A stretch of DNA of 64,000 nt from assembly GCA_002734065.2 (NCBI GenBank), contig NVXU02000014.1, forward strand, positions 1 to 64,000, in the 5' to 3' direction. The notes beneath the pieces were generated by a model. The model made no database searches and was not told where the DNA came from. It worked only from the letters and a program-made list of their open reading frames with translations. Below are positions 44,029 through 51,105 of the stretch, piece by piece (the stretch's first letter is position 1; each line of letters begins with the position of its first letter). The translations under genes were made by a program, and so were the position numbers. This DNA is from Fluviicola sp. GTDB taxonomy: Bacteria; Bacteroidota; Bacteroidia; Flavobacteriales_D; Crocinitomicaceae.

Positions 44029-44133
44029 TAATTCATAATTCATAATCTAACAGGAATCAACTTCTCCCACGAACCTACTGCAACTCATCACTCTAACAAC
44101 AGTTGGTTGCCGAGCGTTAGCCGAGGTGCTACT
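44029..44133 (-). repeat. TTAGATTATGAATTATG and CCGAGCG-type repeats after a rhomboid gene
   Basis: Minus strand: gccgagg-gctaacgctcgg hairpin near 44109-44127, then CCTGTTAGATTATGAATTATGAATTATT (about 44029-44056). The second part belongs to the family at 40023 and 63692. The remaining 43907-44028 shows no gene. Confidence 0.65.
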
Positions 44134-45043
44134 TCTTACTTTGATTAAACAAAAAGTCTTTCTCTTTCTTAGTCAATGATTCATAACCAGATTTTGAGAT
44201 TTTGTCCAGTATTTTATCAATGACTTCTTGTTTACTTTTCTTTTCTGTATTGTAATCTTCATCGGACTTATGGCGAACAGATTTGCCACCTTTCTTTACT
44301 TTCATACGTGTTGCATCTTTCTTAGCAAAGATTTTTAGAATAGAATTCATGAATCCTTGAGAAAGTGTAACAATGTTACTTGAAGCATGTACATTCTGTA
44401 TGGACCATACTCCTAAAATTGCTCCTCCTAGGTGTGCAAAATGTGCAGTGTTATCGCCAGAATCTAATTTAAAAAAGTCCATTAAAATGAATGCAATGGC
44501 CAAGAAAATGATTCTTACAGAGAAAAAACCGAATAAATTAACCTTTGTATTGGGTCGGTAAAACGCAACAGCGACGAAAATCGCCATGATAGAACCGGAT
44601 GCACCGACAACGCTAATACTCGTAAATTGTAACTTCTCGAATGCTGCATAAGCAATGACTTCGAGTAATCCTCCCAAAATTCCACCGAGGATGTAGGTTG
44701 CCAAAAGTCGTTTCGCATTGAACAATTGCTCGAACATTCTCCCTGCAAAATAAAGGAAAATCATGTTCCAAAGTAAGTGCATTAACCCATAATGGGTGAA
44801 CATATAGGTGAATAATGCCCACGGATGCGTGATAAACGACATAAAATCGGTTTGCAAACCAAGAAATGGATTTACGTATGAATCCACAAATGCGCCTTCT
44901 GAAGAGCCTAGTAGCGAAGAGAAGATACTTAAAGCACGAATACCAATGAAGATAACGAGATTGATAAAAATCAATTTCACCGTCATTCCACCATGCTTTA
45001 ATTGATGCCTGATGCTGTCTATAAAAGTTGCTTGTGTCTGCAT
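44129..45043 (-). CDS. Rhomboid family intramembrane serine protease
   Basis: The 304-residue protein has six membrane helices. The catalytic Ser lies in VVGASGSIMAIFVA and the His in HFAHLGGAILGVW. PWALFTYMFTHYGLMHLLWNM is the conserved Loop1-helix2 pattern. The C-terminus is a charged cytoplasmic tail (MKVKKGGKSVRHKSDEDYN to SGYESLTKKEKDFLFNQS), a form seen in Bacteroidota rhomboids. It cleaves membrane helices. Its substrate is unknown. The neighbouring rhomboid gene ends 2 bases upstream, so the two are a tandem pair in the mutL operon. Confidence 0.93.
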   Translation of the reverse strand: MQTQATFIDSIRHQLKHGGMTVKLIFINLVIFIGIRALSIFSSLLGSSEGAFVDSYVNPFLGLQTDFMSFITHPWALFTYMFTHYGLMHLLWNMIFLYFAGRMFEQLFNAKRLLATYILGGILGGLLEVIAYAAFEKLQFTSISVVGASGSIMAIFVAVAFYRPNTKVNLFGFFSVRIIFLAIAFILMDFFKLDSGDNTAHFAHLGGAILGVWSIQNVHASSNIVTLSQGFMNSILKIFAKKDATRMKVKKGGKSVRHKSDEDYNTEKKSKQEVIDKILDKISKSGYESLTKKEKDFLFNQSKK

Positions 45044-45045
45044 GA

Positions 45046-45807
45046 TTAATAGAAGTTTTTACGGTCTTTCTTTTTCCAGATGAGTACAAGAATTATTCCA
45101 ACAACGGCACCGCCGACGTGTGCTAAGTGAGCAATTGTGTCCCCCGGTTTGTAGATGCTGCTATAAACTTCGAAAGCAATGTAACCTCCAATTAAATATT
45201 TAGCCTTAATTGGAATTGGTGGAAACAAGAGCATCAATTTTGTGTTTGGAAAGAGAATGGCAAAACCTGCGAGTAAACCGAAAATGGCTCCAGATGCCCC
45301 AGCGAGATTACTATTATTGAAGTTGATATACGTCTGTACCGTTTCTGTGTTTAGCTCTGGGTGTGTTCTTGCATAAAGATTAACCGCTTCAAAGTTGTTG
45401 GCTACAATCTGATGATTTAATGAAGTAATGTCGTAGCCTTGAGCGATAATTTGGTTTTTTAATTCCAGAATTTGCCAAACTCCGATTCCATTGTAAAGCG
45501 CAAAAGAACCTAAGCCACAAGCAATGTAGAAAATAAAATAGCGTTTTGCACCCCAAATTTTCTCCAAATGTGCTCCGAACATGAATAAAAGCAGCATGTT
45601 AAAAAGAATATGCATAAAATCGGTCATACTGTGCATAAACATGTGCGTGATGATCTGATAAGGCTCGAAGAACACCGTCCCGAAATAATGCGTCCCAAGG
45701 ATATCAATCATATTAATTCCTTTACTTGTGAGCACCATTGATACTATGTAGATTAGTACATTGAGTAGCAGCAAATTCTTAGTTACGGGAGGTAAATTTT
45801 GAAACAT
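45046..45807 (-). CDS. Rhomboid family intramembrane serine protease (second copy)
   Basis: The 253-residue protein has six predicted helices, the catalytic Ser in LAGASGAIFGLLAGF, and the His in IAHLAHVGGAVVGIILV. YQIITHMFMHSMTDFMHILFN matches the GxWRxxTxxF-H loop region. It lacks the long C-terminal tail of its neighbour. It lies 3 bases after mutL and 2 bases before the other rhomboid, so translation is probably coupled. The two are divergent in sequence, an old duplication rather than a recent one. Confidence 0.93.
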   Translation of the reverse strand: MFQNLPPVTKNLLLLNVLIYIVSMVLTSKGINMIDILGTHYFGTVFFEPYQIITHMFMHSMTDFMHILFNMLLLFMFGAHLEKIWGAKRYFIFYIACGLGSFALYNGIGVWQILELKNQIIAQGYDITSLNHQIVANNFEAVNLYARTHPELNTETVQTYINFNNSNLAGASGAIFGLLAGFAILFPNTKLMLLFPPIPIKAKYLIGGYIAFEVYSSIYKPGDTIAHLAHVGGAVVGIILVLIWKKKDRKNFY

Positions 45808-45810
45808 CTT

Positions 45811-47658
45811 CTAATTAAATTTTTGTGCAATTTCATCCAATGAAATTGTCTCTATTATTTTTTTATTTCTCGGAGAATAAGTGTGGTTCTCGCATTGGAA
45901 TAACTGGTCTATCAATCCTTGAATCGATTCATTAGTAGAAAGATTTAAGTTTTTCATAGCAGCAGATCGAGCGATGGAAGCAATGAATGCATGTGCAATT
46001 TCTCCTTTTTCAATATCCTGATACGCCAAGGTAGCAAAAAGTTCGTCAATTGCTTTTGAAATGGCTTCTTCTTGCAAAACGGAAGGGACAGCTGCAACTT
46101 GCAGAATTCCATCCTTGATTTCTCCATTAAAACCGAGTTGTTGAAGCAAGGATTGATTTTCTAACCAGCAAGATTCTTCGCTTTTAGAAACTTCTTTCTC
46201 AATGGGGAAAAGTAATGATTGTGATTCTATTGGGTTAGAAATGAATCGATTAATCATAACTGAATAAACAATCTGTTCAATAGCTCTTCTTGCATGAATA
46301 AGTATCAATCCAGATTTACTTGAAGAAATAATGTAGCTGCCTTTGACGATAAATGTCGTTTCAGAGTCCTTGAATTCTTCAAAGGGAATGGCTGTTTTTT
46401 CTTCTTCTACCGGCGATTCATCTTCTATTTTGTAGAAATTCGCCCAATCCTCAGAGTTTGCTTCTTTAGAACCAAAACCTTGATCCATTATTGCTTTGGA
46501 GAAGTTGTCTTTGGCTTTACTACCTCCGCCAGAGCCTGTTCTGCTTGATGTAGAGAAAGGGTTGTAATTCTCATTCACCTTAATAGAAGGTTCTGTTGCA
46601 GGTTGAGAATGCATGGAATGTGGAATGTCAAAGCTTGTTTCTCGCTCGAAATCAAGGGAAGGAGAAATGTTGTATTTTCCCAATGCCAAACGGATTCCGC
46701 TCAATAAAATAGAGTAGATGAACTTTTCTTCTTCAAATTTAATCTCCGTTTTTGTAGGATGCACATTGACGTCAATCTTTTGTGGATCGACATCTAAGTA
46801 CAAGAAATATCCAGGGAATTTTCCGTGTTGCACCAAGCCCTCAAACGCTTTTGTGATAGCGTGGTTGAAGTAAGGACTTCTAAAATAGCGGTCATTTACA
46901 AAAAAGAATTGTTCTCCTCTTGATTTTTTGGCAAATTCAGGTTTTAGAACGAAACCTTTCAGTTGAACAATCTCTGTGCTTTCTTCAATAGGAACCAGTC
47001 TGTCGTTGAAATTTGGACCTAGAATATTGACGATTCTTTTTCTTAAAACAGCAGCTGGGAGGTTGTGAATTTCCGTTCCATTGTGCTTTAATGTCAAGTG
47101 AATATTAGCATGCGAGAAAGCAATGCGTTCAAATTCATCTTGTATGTGCTTGAATTCTGTCGAATCTTTCTTGAGGAAATTACGTCTTGCTGGAACGTTG
47201 TAAAACAAGTTTTTGATTTCAAAAGAAGTCCCTTTTGGGCAAACGGTGTCTTCGTTTGACTTGATGTTGCTTCCCTCAATGACAATGCTTCGTCCCGTGT
47301 CGGCATCCTCCGTTTTTGTCCTCATTTCTACATGCGCAATCGCCGCAACGGAGGCCAATGCTTCTCCTCGAAATCCTTTGGTTGTCAGCGCGAATAAATC
47401 ATCTGCCGTTCTTATTTTACTGGTTGCGTGCCTCTGAAAGCAAAGTACAGCATCACTTTCCGACATGCCATTGCCATTGTCAACGACTTGAATTAAGGTT
47501 TTTCCAGCATCTTTTATGTTGATATCAATTTTAGTTGCGCCAGCATCAATGGCATTCTCCATTAATTCTTTCACAACTGACGCAGGACGTTGAATAACCT
47601 CTCCTGCAGCAATCTGATTCGCAATGTTATCGGGCAATAATTGTATAAAATCACTCAT
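45811..47658 (-). CDS. mutL: DNA mismatch repair protein MutL, apparently lacking the endonuclease motifs
   Basis: The 615-residue protein has an intact GHKL ATPase N-terminus: GEVIQRPASVVKELMENAID, DAGATKIDI, DNGNGM, GFRGEALASVAA and GTSFEIKNLFYNVPARRNF, then DVNVHPTKTEIKF. The C-terminal dimerisation domain is present from about 430. Where MutL endonucleases have DQHAxxERxxYE, this protein has LIHARRAIEQIVYS (about 453-466). The C-terminal CPHGRP-type motif reads YSPRNKKIIET (about 597-607). ATP-dependent matchmaking should work, but nicking is doubtful. It is the second gene of a four-gene minus-strand operon (small TM protein, mutL, two rhomboids). Confidence 0.93.
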   Translation of the reverse strand: MSDFIQLLPDNIANQIAAGEVIQRPASVVKELMENAIDAGATKIDINIKDAGKTLIQVVDNGNGMSESDAVLCFQRHATSKIRTADDLFALTTKGFRGEALASVAAIAHVEMRTKTEDADTGRSIVIEGSNIKSNEDTVCPKGTSFEIKNLFYNVPARRNFLKKDSTEFKHIQDEFERIAFSHANIHLTLKHNGTEIHNLPAAVLRKRIVNILGPNFNDRLVPIEESTEIVQLKGFVLKPEFAKKSRGEQFFFVNDRYFRSPYFNHAITKAFEGLVQHGKFPGYFLYLDVDPQKIDVNVHPTKTEIKFEEEKFIYSILLSGIRLALGKYNISPSLDFERETSFDIPHSMHSQPATEPSIKVNENYNPFSTSSRTGSGGGSKAKDNFSKAIMDQGFGSKEANSEDWANFYKIEDESPVEEEKTAIPFEEFKDSETTFIVKGSYIISSSKSGLILIHARRAIEQIVYSVMINRFISNPIESQSLLFPIEKEVSKSEESCWLENQSLLQQLGFNGEIKDGILQVAAVPSVLQEEAISKAIDELFATLAYQDIEKGEIAHAFIASIARSAAMKNLNLSTNESIQGLIDQLFQCENHTYSPRNKKIIETISLDEIAQKFN

Positions 47659-47664
47659 CGATGC

Positions 47665-47988
47665 TTAGTACAATTTTTTAACGATTGTATCTACTTCGTC
47701 CACTCCGTTGAAGACAAAATAGCCTAAAACAAGAATTATTAAAATAAGTAACAATATCCGATAATTAGACGTCCTGTTCTGACTCTGCCTGTATTGTGCG
47801 CGATTCCATTCTCCTTTGATATTCTCTTTGAAAATCTCTTTTCTTCTTTCATTACTCATGTTAGACGAGTCTAACTCTTCGTATTGCTTTTTTTTAGCCG
47901 CCAAACGCTCCTTCCTTTCGTCATAATAACGAGGGTTGTATTGGTAACGCTGATGCGCAATGGTTTTATTTAAGAATCGGATTTTCAT
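47665..47988 (-). CDS. Small tail-anchored membrane protein, hypothetical
   Basis: The 107-residue protein has a basic, helical N-terminal part (RYYDERKERLAAKKKQYEEL, NERRKEIFKENIKGEWNRA) and a membrane helix near the C-terminus (about 76-95, YRILLLILIILVLGYFVF). I know similar proteins next to mutL in Flavobacteriales but no function. It ends 6 bases before mutL and is the first cistron of that operon. Confidence 0.8.
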   Translation of the reverse strand: MKIRFLNKTIAHQRYQYNPRYYDERKERLAAKKKQYEELDSSNMSNERRKEIFKENIKGEWNRAQYRQSQNRTSNYRILLLILIILVLGYFVFNGVDEVDTIVKKLY

Positions 47989-48147
47989 CTATTACAAATT
48001 TACTGATTTTCTTTGTGGTGTAACGTTAATTGATGTGAAAATCTTCAATCTTCCAATCTTTAAATTTTACTTATCGAGCTTGTCGAGATGCAAAAATCAT
48101 TACTATATTTACCAAACATCCTTAAAAAACGAATTATCTCCGTCTTA

Positions 48148-51105
48148 ATGAAGCGAATTTTCTCCAAAAAACTGTTTATTATTCTGCCAATAGTAGCGGT
48201 CTTATTTTTTGCTGTTTTTAGTCAAGAAAGCACCCCTTTTCCACAAGAATTCAGTGCAAAACAAGAGCTTGAAGAGATTGTTATACCCCAACTAACACCA
48301 AGTGAGTCGTGGGCAGATGAAAAATTAGCAACGCTTTCTCTTCGTCAAAAAGTAGGTCAATTTTTTATGATAGGTTCTTCTTCCAATAAATCAGAATCGC
48401 ATTTTAAAGAGGTCGATTTACTCATTGAGAATGAAGAAGTGGGAGGAGTAATTTTCTTCCAAGGAGAAAGGTCGAATTTAAAAACGTGCATAGAACGCTA
48501 CCAAAAAAAGAGCAGTATTCCCTTGTTGATTGCTATGGATGCAGAATGGGGAGTGAGTATGCGCCTGTTTGGTGAGGAGCGTTTTCCCTATAATTATACG
48601 CTTGGCGCAGCGAATAATCCAAAATTAACAGAGAGAATTGCTGAAATGATAGGGCAGGAGTGCCGAGAATTAGGAATTCACATGAATTTTGCGCCCGTTG
48701 CGGATGTAAATAGCAATCCCAACAACCCAGTCATCGGTTTTCGTTCTTATGGAGAATACCCAAAAGACGTCGCAGCACACGTTACTGCAACTGTTATTGG
48801 AATGGAGAAACAAGGGGTTCTGACGAGCATCAAGCATTTTCCGGGACACGGAGACACGGATGTTGATTCTCATAAAGATTTGCCAATCGTTAATAATTCT
48901 TACAATCACATCAATGCCATTGATTTCTTTCCTTTTAGAGCAGGAATCTCTGCAGGTGCCTCTTCGGTGATGATAGGTCATCTAAATGTGCCGGCGTTAG
49001 ATGACACAGGAACACCGAGTAGCTTGTCGAAGCCAACCATTCAGAATTATTTGAAGGGAGAACTAGGCTTCAAAGGTTTAGTGGTGAGTGATGCGCTCAG
49101 AATGAAGGCGGTTGCCGATAGATACGGTGCGGTAGATGCCGTCGTGAAGAGCTTTGAAGCAGGTTGCGACATCCTGTTGTTGCCAGAAAGTGTTGGCGAT
49201 GCTATCAATGCCATTGTTGCAAAAGTCAATGCGGGAGAAATTAGTTTGGACGAAGTAAACGCACGCTGCAAGAAAATTCTGATGGCAAAGCACAAAGCAA
49301 TCATTGCTCCCAAAAAGTATAAGAAATATACAAAAGGGGAAATTGAATTGGCAAAGAACCTCGTTTATGAACAAGCAATTACTGTCTTGAAAAATGAGAA
49401 TGAAATGTTGCCCATCAAACGTTTCGATCAGAAAATAGTGCATGTCAGCATCGGTTTGCATGCGGAAGCCCTTAGCGAATCAATGGACTTGGTCAGCAAG
49501 GTAGATCACTTTCATTTTCATACGGGAGAAGAGGCGATTCGGAGAATGTCAGGAAAGTTGAATAATTACGATATTATCATCACCAGCATTCATGCGAAAC
49601 GCGTGTCAAAACGAGGCGATTACGGGATGCCAAAAGGGTGGAGGCAATGGTTGAAGAATGTCCCCGTTGAGAAGAAAAATATCTTTGCTCTCTTCGGAAA
49701 CCCCTATGTTATCAAGGGGTGCGTGAGTTTGAGTGATTTTCAATCGGTGGTGGTTGCTTATGAGAACAATGCCCTTGTTAACAACAGAATGGGGCAATTC
49801 TTAATGGGAACCTTTGCCTCCAAAGGGAAGTTGCCGGTGAGTATTAATTCGGACTTTAAAAGAGGTCATGGAGTAGAGGTTGTTTCAGGCAATCGTTTGA
49901 AAGAATCACAACCTGAAGAATTGGGAATTAACCCGAAAAAATTGGCGCAAATCGACAGTATTGTTATGCACGGAATTAGAGATGGCGCTTTTCCAGGTTG
50001 CCAAATTGTGGTTGCCGTAAAAGGAAAAGTGATTTATAGAAAATCTTTCGGGAATCACACTTATTCTGAAGAAAGACCTGTTCTCAATGACGATGTTTAC
50101 GACATTGCTTCCATCACAAAAATTGCTGCTTCCACCTTGTCGCTGATGCACTACAACAGCCTTGAAGAATTGAATTTGAACCAGCATTTACACGATTTTC
50201 TGCCAGAATTAACGAAAGATACGCCTTATGCAAACATGCAACTGCGAAAAATGTTGTCGCATCAAGCGGGATTAAGACCTTGGATTCCATTCTACGTAAA
50301 AACATTGAAAAACGGGCAACCTGACACGACCATTTATGCCAAAGATTCTTCAGCGTTGTACAATAAAAGAGTTGCAAAAGATATGTGGATAGTTGGTTCT
50401 TACACAGATAAAATTTACAGTACGATTCTCCGTACACCTTTATTGAAGTACAGAAAATACAAGTATTCAGACCTCGGATATTACTTTGTAAAGAAAATCA
50501 TTGAGAAGAAATCAGGACAGTCTTTGGACGAATTTGTGACTTCTCAATTCTACCAGCCAATGGGCTTAGATTATTTGAGTTATTACCCAACAAGGCATTT
50601 CCCACTGAGTAGAATCACGCCAACGGAGAATGATACCATTTTTAGAAAGACTTTGGTGCACGGTTATGTTCACGATCAAGGCGCATCCATGATGGGTGGA
50701 GTTGGAGGTCATGCCGGCTTGTTTTCCAACGCCTTGGATTTGGCAAAATTGATGCAAATGTATCTCAATGAAGGCAGTTATGGCGGAGTTCAGTACATCA
50801 AACCGCAAGTGATTAAGGAATATACAGATTGCCAATTCTGCCCAAAGAATAGGAGAGGAGCAGGTTTTGACAAACCTGTAACAACCTTGAAAGGAGGTCC
50901 GACGTGCAACCTTGTGTCCTTGAAAAGTTTCGGTCATTCTGGCTTTACAGGAACAATCGTCTGGGCAGACCCTGTGAAAGACATCAATTATGTTTTTCTG
51001 TCCAACCGTGTTTACCCCAATGCGGAGAATTGGAAAATAGTGAGAATGAATATTCGCACCGACATTCAACGAGTGATTTATGAAGCTGTAAATTCTGCCA
51101 AGTAA
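48148..51105 (+). CDS. NagZ-like GH3 N-acetylglucosaminidase fused to a class C beta-lactamase-like serine hydrolase
   Basis: The start is ATG 48148 (MKRIFSKKLFIILPIVAVL, a signal anchor); an earlier in-frame ATG lacks a signal. The 985-residue protein has a GH3 N-terminal domain (about 55-380) with the NagZ motif KHFPGHGDTDVDSHKDLP (Lys229 onward) and nucleophile region VVSDALRMKAV. A GH3 C-terminal-type domain (about 400-600) follows. The C-terminal beta-lactamase-fold domain (about 610-985) has SITK (Ser655, Lys658), YSDLGYYFV (Tyr base) and GHSGFTG. It should act on peptidoglycan fragments in the periplasm, with the hydrolase half as a possible D-peptidase or esterase. The PAP2 gene starts 1 base after its stop. 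Confidence 0.93.
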   Translation: MKRIFSKKLFIILPIVAVLFFAVFSQESTPFPQEFSAKQELEEIVIPQLTPSESWADEKLATLSLRQKVGQFFMIGSSSNKSESHFKEVDLLIENEEVGGVIFFQGERSNLKTCIERYQKKSSIPLLIAMDAEWGVSMRLFGEERFPYNYTLGAANNPKLTERIAEMIGQECRELGIHMNFAPVADVNSNPNNPVIGFRSYGEYPKDVAAHVTATVIGMEKQGVLTSIKHFPGHGDTDVDSHKDLPIVNNSYNHINAIDFFPFRAGISAGASSVMIGHLNVPALDDTGTPSSLSKPTIQNYLKGELGFKGLVVSDALRMKAVADRYGAVDAVVKSFEAGCDILLLPESVGDAINAIVAKVNAGEISLDEVNARCKKILMAKHKAIIAPKKYKKYTKGEIELAKNLVYEQAITVLKNENEMLPIKRFDQKIVHVSIGLHAEALSESMDLVSKVDHFHFHTGEEAIRRMSGKLNNYDIIITSIHAKRVSKRGDYGMPKGWRQWLKNVPVEKKNIFALFGNPYVIKGCVSLSDFQSVVVAYENNALVNNRMGQFLMGTFASKGKLPVSINSDFKRGHGVEVVSGNRLKESQPEELGINPKKLAQIDSIVMHGIRDGAFPGCQIVVAVKGKVIYRKSFGNHTYSEERPVLNDDVYDIASITKIAASTLSLMHYNSLEELNLNQHLHDFLPELTKDTPYANMQLRKMLSHQAGLRPWIPFYVKTLKNGQPDTTIYAKDSSALYNKRVAKDMWIVGSYTDKIYSTILRTPLLKYRKYKYSDLGYYFVKKIIEKKSGQSLDEFVTSQFYQPMGLDYLSYYPTRHFPLSRITPTENDTIFRKTLVHGYVHDQGASMMGGVGGHAGLFSNALDLAKLMQMYLNEGSYGGVQYIKPQVIKEYTDCQFCPKNRRGAGFDKPVTTLKGGPTCNLVSLKSFGHSGFTGTIVWADPVKDINYVFLSNRVYPNAENWKIVRMNIRTDIQRVIYEAVNSAK

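Follow-up and report, generated by a model that had tools for sequence, protein, structure and literature searches.

MutL of E. coli does not cut DNA itself and depends on MutH. The MutL endonucleases of MutH-less bacteria, such as those of B. subtilis, N. gonorrhoeae and A. aeolicus, bind zinc ions with residues of three motifs, and the Asp of motif II is essential for them yet is not a zinc ligand, according to PMC10366529. PMC2965676 adds that the last Glu of motif II is joined by a salt bridge to the Arg that comes after the first Glu, and that NgoL from N. gonorrhoeae has a composite active site, built jointly by helix 1, which carries motif II, by helix 5, which runs up to motif IV, and by the linker that holds motif V. 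The MutL described here shares with these endonucleases the fold of the C-terminal domain (CTD), the ATPase domain, the clamp motif and one Glu of the site, whereas it has other residues in place of the essential Asp and of four of the five zinc ligands. It resembles the E. coli protein in having no canonical nuclease ligands, apart from this one Glu, and in retaining the ATPase domain and the clamp motif; it differs from it in that its genome holds no MutH other than a piece of a restriction enzyme and in two clade-specific, nearly invariant His residues.

The gene lies in the window, i.e., the whole analyzed stretch of 64,000 nucleotides (positions 1-64,000 of contig NVXU02000014.1, assembly GCA_002734065.2) from Fluviicola sp. 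(Bacteroidota; Bacteroidia; Flavobacteriales_D; Crocinitomicaceae). Its product is a MutL (Table 1). The curated MutL model TIGR00585 scores 498.5 bits against a cut-off of 180, and the Pfam families DNA_mis_repair and MutL_C (PF08676) match with 119.9 and 73.4 bits. Besides PF08676, the C-terminal dimerisation domain is supported by structural matches of an AlphaFold2 model of the CTD (mean pLDDT 93.3) to N. gonorrhoeae NgoL (3ncv_B, Z 19.8, rmsd 3.0, 178 aligned), Zn-bound B. subtilis MutL (3kdk_B, Z 16.6, rmsd 3.3, 176 aligned) and E. coli MutL (1x9z_B, Z 14.9). The ATPase half had been called intact in a sequence-only reading of this DNA, and rightly so, as 15 of the 19 positions checked are invariant across 202 aligned rows, the window protein included. 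The search for a second MutL which that reading had proposed returned a single match in the own genome (3.49 Mb, rated 99.98% complete), and this candidate was rejected.

Table 1. Position of mutL and of its domains and motifs in the window.
Feature	Residues	Window positions	Strand	Basis
mutL, 615 aa		45811..47658	minus	ORF and Pfam/NCBIfam profiles
N-terminal ATPase domain, intact	5-332	46663..47646	minus	
C-terminal domain (CTD), MutL-CTD fold in AlphaFold2 model	430-615	45814..46371	minus	
Degenerate motif II HARRAIEQIVYS; E461 is the sole canonical ligand kept	455-466	46261..46296	minus	
Predicted clamp-binding motif QSLLFP, kept	480-485	46204..46221	minus	
Clade-specific GEIAH, includes H556	552-556	45991..46005	minus	
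Position of the ACR motif; R564 replaces zinc Cys	563-565	45964..45972	minus	
Stretch CENHTYSPRNKK, covering CENH to SPRNKK		45859..45894	minus	
CENH, includes clade-specific H592	589-592	45883..45894	minus	
SPRNKK, replaces CPHGRP; K599 at catalytic Arg position	595-600	45859..45876	minus	

Two rhomboid-domain genes directly follow mutL on the same strand (window 44129-45807, minus). A crude motif test detected a rhomboid-like frame downstream and on the same strand in all 100 loci with at least 900 nt after mutL, some of these loci being the same gene twice. Just upstream of mutL lies a 107-aa frame (window 47665-47988, minus) with no Pfam match at E 0.01. By eye, a 1005-aa frame on the plus strand (window 48088-51105) resembles a glycoside hydrolase family 3 domain fused to a beta-lactamase-like one.

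The degeneration of the endonuclease motifs, which had been claimed from the sequence alone, was confirmed: HARRAIEQIVYS stands in place of DQHAxxERxxYE and SPRNKK in place of CPHGRP, and from the pattern DQHA(X)2E(X)4E the first Glu alone survives. The motif columns were anchored by L132, a class member (family f45) that carries DQHAAHERILYE, ACR and CPHGRP. Realignment with relatives on these columns leaves the motif degenerate, and an intact motif after realignment was rejected. For some canonical positions the B. subtilis residue numbers used here are presumed. As zinc ligands we counted H464, E468, C573, C604, and H606, following PMC2965676. In the anchored alignment D462, H464, E468, and E473 of B. 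subtilis correspond to H455, R457, E461, and S466 of the window MutL, and C573, C604, H606, and R608 to R564, S595, R597, and K599. Among the canonical positions only E468 is kept; one of five zinc ligands remains, the Asp is gone, and ACR and CPHGRP have lost their ligands to R564, S595, and R597. From 29 genomes of the window's genus we obtained 25 rows, leaving out G007 (internal stop), G009 (no CTD), G013 (fragment), and G073 (not fetched). None of these 25 rows has D462, H464, C573, C604, or H606, so the loss is not a sequencing quirk. The sequence-only reading had listed a metal-binding Asp, the His and the last Glu as lost. All three losses stand; the Asp, however, is not a zinc ligand, and the last Glu serves the salt bridge with the Arg. 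In most of the window's genus the two partners of this bridge have changed together: 20 of 25 rows pair Q462 with S/T466, four pair R with D/N, and one pairs Q with E.

It had also been assumed that bacteria without MutH normally keep these motifs, which fails in the class: at most one of the five ligands is kept in 55 of 59 class rows, while MutH-family matches occur in only 8 of 158 class genomes. The window MutL is therefore no exception. The 59 rows, from 53 families, were chosen by hand, mostly one per family, out of the 158 genomes searched, and six further fetched loci of the same families were excluded. No zinc ligand is left in nine rows, one in 46, two in three, and all five in L132, which is the sole class member among the 59 rows with all canonical endonuclease motifs, either retained or gained by transfer. 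Other parts of the site persist more often, namely D462 (41/59), E468 (45/59), both together (33/59), E473 (52/59), and K or R at position 608 (51/59), which suggests a remaining constraint on part of motif II. A second set came from named loci, the best 80 listed, which comprise 64 Flavobacteriaceae-type rows, 15 members of the clade defined below and L213 (no CTD); it is biased towards proteins closely related to the window MutL, and several clade members in it duplicate family or genus genomes. The 64 named rows from these best 80, mostly Flavobacteriaceae (among the matches listed Flavobacterium, Mesonia, Aquimarina, Leeuwenhoekiella, and others), have no zinc ligand in 40 cases, one in 23, and two in one, i.e., at most one in 63 of 64. 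D462 and E468 never occur together in them, and 51 have Q at position 468.

Outside the class, all 45 rows of the phylum genome set were read. Thirty of them keep all five ligands, one keeps two, 11 keep one, and three keep none; the complete rows span 10 of 16 families, with 13 of them from f76. The simplest reading would be an ancestor with the canonical site, which was then lost close to the root of the class and, in separate events, beyond the class. Altered sites outside the class were seen in f72 (L164, L166, L168, L312), with DQNAAHERILYE and SPTGRP, and in f82 (L184, L185, L189, L191, L328), with DQHLAHKRIIFE and DPLKKP. Within f75, L314 has a MutL with NFYEAKRKIFYE and GIEGKL, and five other members retain all canonical zinc ligands. 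A search of open-licence papers by their titles and the beginnings of their abstracts found no work on loss of the MutL nuclease in the phylum. A 2014 survey by Banasik and Sachadyn, cited in PMC9159922, may bear on the loss of this nuclease.

No mutH had been noticed in the window, and the genome search agrees with this, finding only the C-terminal part of a Sau3AI-type enzyme. The one PF02976 (MutH family) match over cut-off in the own genome reaches 25-27 bits; the same protein scores 364 bits to the Sau3AI family over model positions 146-474 of 475, with positions 1-145 missing. A stand-alone MutH in the own genome was rejected, the sole match being part of a Sau3AI-type restriction enzyme. 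This C-terminal two thirds of a Sau3AI-family protein is encoded at L074:11966-12916 on contig C40, and in the 14 kb read no methylase-like frame reaching 120 aa was noticed. MutH-family matches were found in 7 of 120 family genomes, and the other 15 same-genus genomes within these 120 have none. The frames of the nine strong matches (five from the family, four from the class) measure 453-514 aa, which corresponds in length to Sau3AI-type enzymes (model of 475 positions). Among the weaker ones, judged by eye, those of G247 (202 aa) and G146 (216 aa) adjoin methylase-like genes, and that of G186 is Sau3AI-like (G195 left out).

NucS_C (PF01939; EndoMS/NucS) gave no match in the own genome and matched in 7 of 14 controls. 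MutS of the own genome is complete, with 908 bits to TIGR01070 and all five domains. It has FYE near its start and QLSFF near its end, which we take to be the mismatch-binding and clamp-binding signatures. Two more MutS-like products are encoded by the own genome, one of 588 aa, which combines hydrophobic stretches with a MutS ATPase domain (L161:679-2445, contig C6), and one of 725 aa (contig C32). In G146 (family; 99% complete) and G210 (class; 98%) a full-length MutS occurs with no MutL match, which may reflect true loss or an assembly gap; as evidence on whether MutL and MutS are lost together, these two genomes carry no weight. Given the degenerate motifs, the single MutL, the missing NucS and no MutH beyond the restriction-enzyme part, strand discrimination may well not use the MutL-nuclease route.

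From these comparisons we lean, with modest confidence, towards a clamp-tethered MutL without canonical nuclease, which would use strand ends already present. MutS would find the mismatch, and MutL would act as a clamp-tethered ATPase matchmaker that couples MutS to the clamp and to downstream enzymes. Excision would begin at ends present on the new strand, such as Okazaki ends, gaps and ribonucleotide nicks, and the orientation of the clamp would mark that strand. We infer both the loss of cutting by the window MutL and the use of existing ends. This reading is put first because the ligand loss spans the class and the new histidines are confined to one branch. Activity is abolished in B. subtilis D462N (PMC2965676) and in A. 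aeolicus H404A within CPHGRP (PMC2744016).

Several points count against a non-cutting protein. Mutation of the CPHGRP Cys in T. thermophilus left activity (PMC2744016). According to PMC10366529, Lys is a partial substitute for the catalytic Arg and the R406K variant retains activity (for R406A, PMC10366529 and PMC2744016 disagree); K is kept at this position in 82 of 91 clade rows. A purely structural CTD leaves the retention of E461 unexplained, the position being E in 86 of 91 clade rows as against 2 of 10 in the sister branch. Evolution is faster in the CTD than in the ATPase domain (mean identity 0.56 vs 0.74), and the partial retention of D462, E468, E473, and K/R608 in the class argues against a clean loss. 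For P. aeruginosa MutL, some motif residues reportedly, by the title of a study cited in PMC8744996, matter in vivo and not for the nuclease in vitro, which we also count against.

The histidines H556 and H592 mark the branch to which the window belongs. Of the family's 22 genera read, seven (10 rows, the sister branch) have IDQ motifs, and fifteen, with the window's genus, form the other branch, referred to as the clade (91 rows: 25 of the same genus and 66 other family rows). The rest of the family (104 genomes) contributed 76 rows, 10 sister and 66 clade, with 28 left out (fragments, one without match, not fetched) as well as genus g16; the order contributed 12 rows from 15 genomes, without G035 (no match), G036 (fragment), and G039 (split). 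In a tree of the ATPase domain alone, with 98 rows, the branch is set off from the rest by a split whose SH-aLRT is 83, below the starred level; the split that sets off the window's genus has 97. Within the clade, H556 is present in 89 rows, H592 in 86, and both in 85; the six departures, too few rows to generalize from, include one without either. Position 455 is H in 61 rows, D in 24, N in four, and Q in two, and C589 is Cys in 67. Exactly one zinc ligand is kept in 86 clade rows, none in four, and two in one.

Outside the clade the usual letters at the two columns are E/D and P. H592 is absent from the 10 sister, 12 order, 59 class, and 45 phylum rows, and H556 is confined there to L127 in the class and L176 in the phylum; neither is found in the 64 named rows among the matches listed. 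In the 111-row comparison set, in which a few genes stand twice (e.g., L027/L174, L091/L177, L096/L170, L135/L175), this amounts to 0/111 and 2/111. A scan of 591 columns for clade markers, comparing 51 branch rows with the 111 others (few repeats), ranked H556 first and H592 third. On the ATPase-domain tree H556 needs three changes and H592 five, so one gain each plus losses fits. The pair is evidently new in the window's lineage and almost absent elsewhere. The position of E461 is E in 5 of 12 order rows, beside the sister, class and clade counts given above. Other MutLs of the class, e.g., of Flavobacterium, are alike in that the zinc site is lost and MutH-family matches are rare; they differ in lacking the H556/H592 pair and, in 51 of the 64 named Flavobacteriaceae-type rows among the matches listed, in having Q at the E468 position.

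Two explanations of the pair were weighed beside the clamp-tethered MutL. The histidines may belong to a re-packed joint between the CTD halves or form a surface on which a partner docks, with no metal site, which we regard as a tentative possibility and which is compatible with a non-cutting MutL. The eleven columns that are most diagnostic of the clade include eight in the CTD (556, 592, 472, 476, 498, 501, 552, and 555), and the helix order in the model, together with PMC2965676, would place the markers at the subdomain joint. A re-packed joint leaves the retention of E461 unexplained.

Somewhat doubtful is the alternative of a rebuilt nuclease site, in which metal would be bound in a new arrangement by E461 and the two histidines, perhaps together with C589 and position 455 (H/D/N), K599 would take the role of the catalytic Arg, and the strand marked by the clamp would be nicked. 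It draws on the near confinement of both histidines to the clade, their rank in the scan, their few changes on the tree and the E461 count. The model puts H556 in helix 5 and H592 in the linker that joins helix 6 to strand 8. Judged from the model's secondary structure, H455/E461, H556, and H592 would thus fall on the three elements of the NgoL active site, which makes a rebuilt metal site possible. Against it, the further clade markers 472, 476, 498, 501, 552, and 555 point to re-packing of an interface. Eight residues, or roughly two turns of helix, separate H556 from the position of the former zinc Cys; Cys at position 589 is found in just 67 of 91 rows; and for position 455 the tree requires 16 changes. 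It appears unlikely that, once the classical zinc site had disappeared from the class, one Crocinitomicaceae branch assembled a different metal-dependent nuclease site from two new His and the retained Glu.

Decay, i.e., weakened repair with a drifting CTD, is very improbable. The lost motif letters, an internal stop in two clade frames (G007, G046) and the lower conservation of the CTD speak for it. Against this, dN/dS of the CTD is 0.020-0.085 in six same-genus species pairs, compared with an ATPase-domain value of 0.028-0.040, which was computable for five of the pairs (all rough values, with dS >1). The same replacement letters recur in most of the window's genus, and MutS is complete. In QSLLFP the clamp residues Q480, F484, and P485 are kept in 91 of 91 clade rows. 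Judged by these comparisons, the MutL of the window's genus is evidently under strong selection and its CTD is not decaying. The sequence-only reading had concluded that strand discrimination must differ or repair be weakened; discrimination may well bypass the MutL-nuclease route, and weakened repair is unsupported in view of the CTD dN/dS, the clamp residues and the complete MutS. A separate MutH-type nickase is nearly refuted and hardly credible, since the one PF02976 match over cut-off which favors it is the Sau3AI-family C-terminal part without positions 1-145 and the other 15 same-genus genomes among the 120 searched lack any match.

Organisms with MutH are usually set apart from organisms with a cutting MutL, and nearly all class members read seem to be neither. 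The automatic name "endonuclease MutL" may therefore mislead for many genomes of the class. If true, a rebuilt site would represent a second evolutionary solution to the nicking of the daughter strand. What marks the new strand becomes a directly testable question in culturable bacteria.
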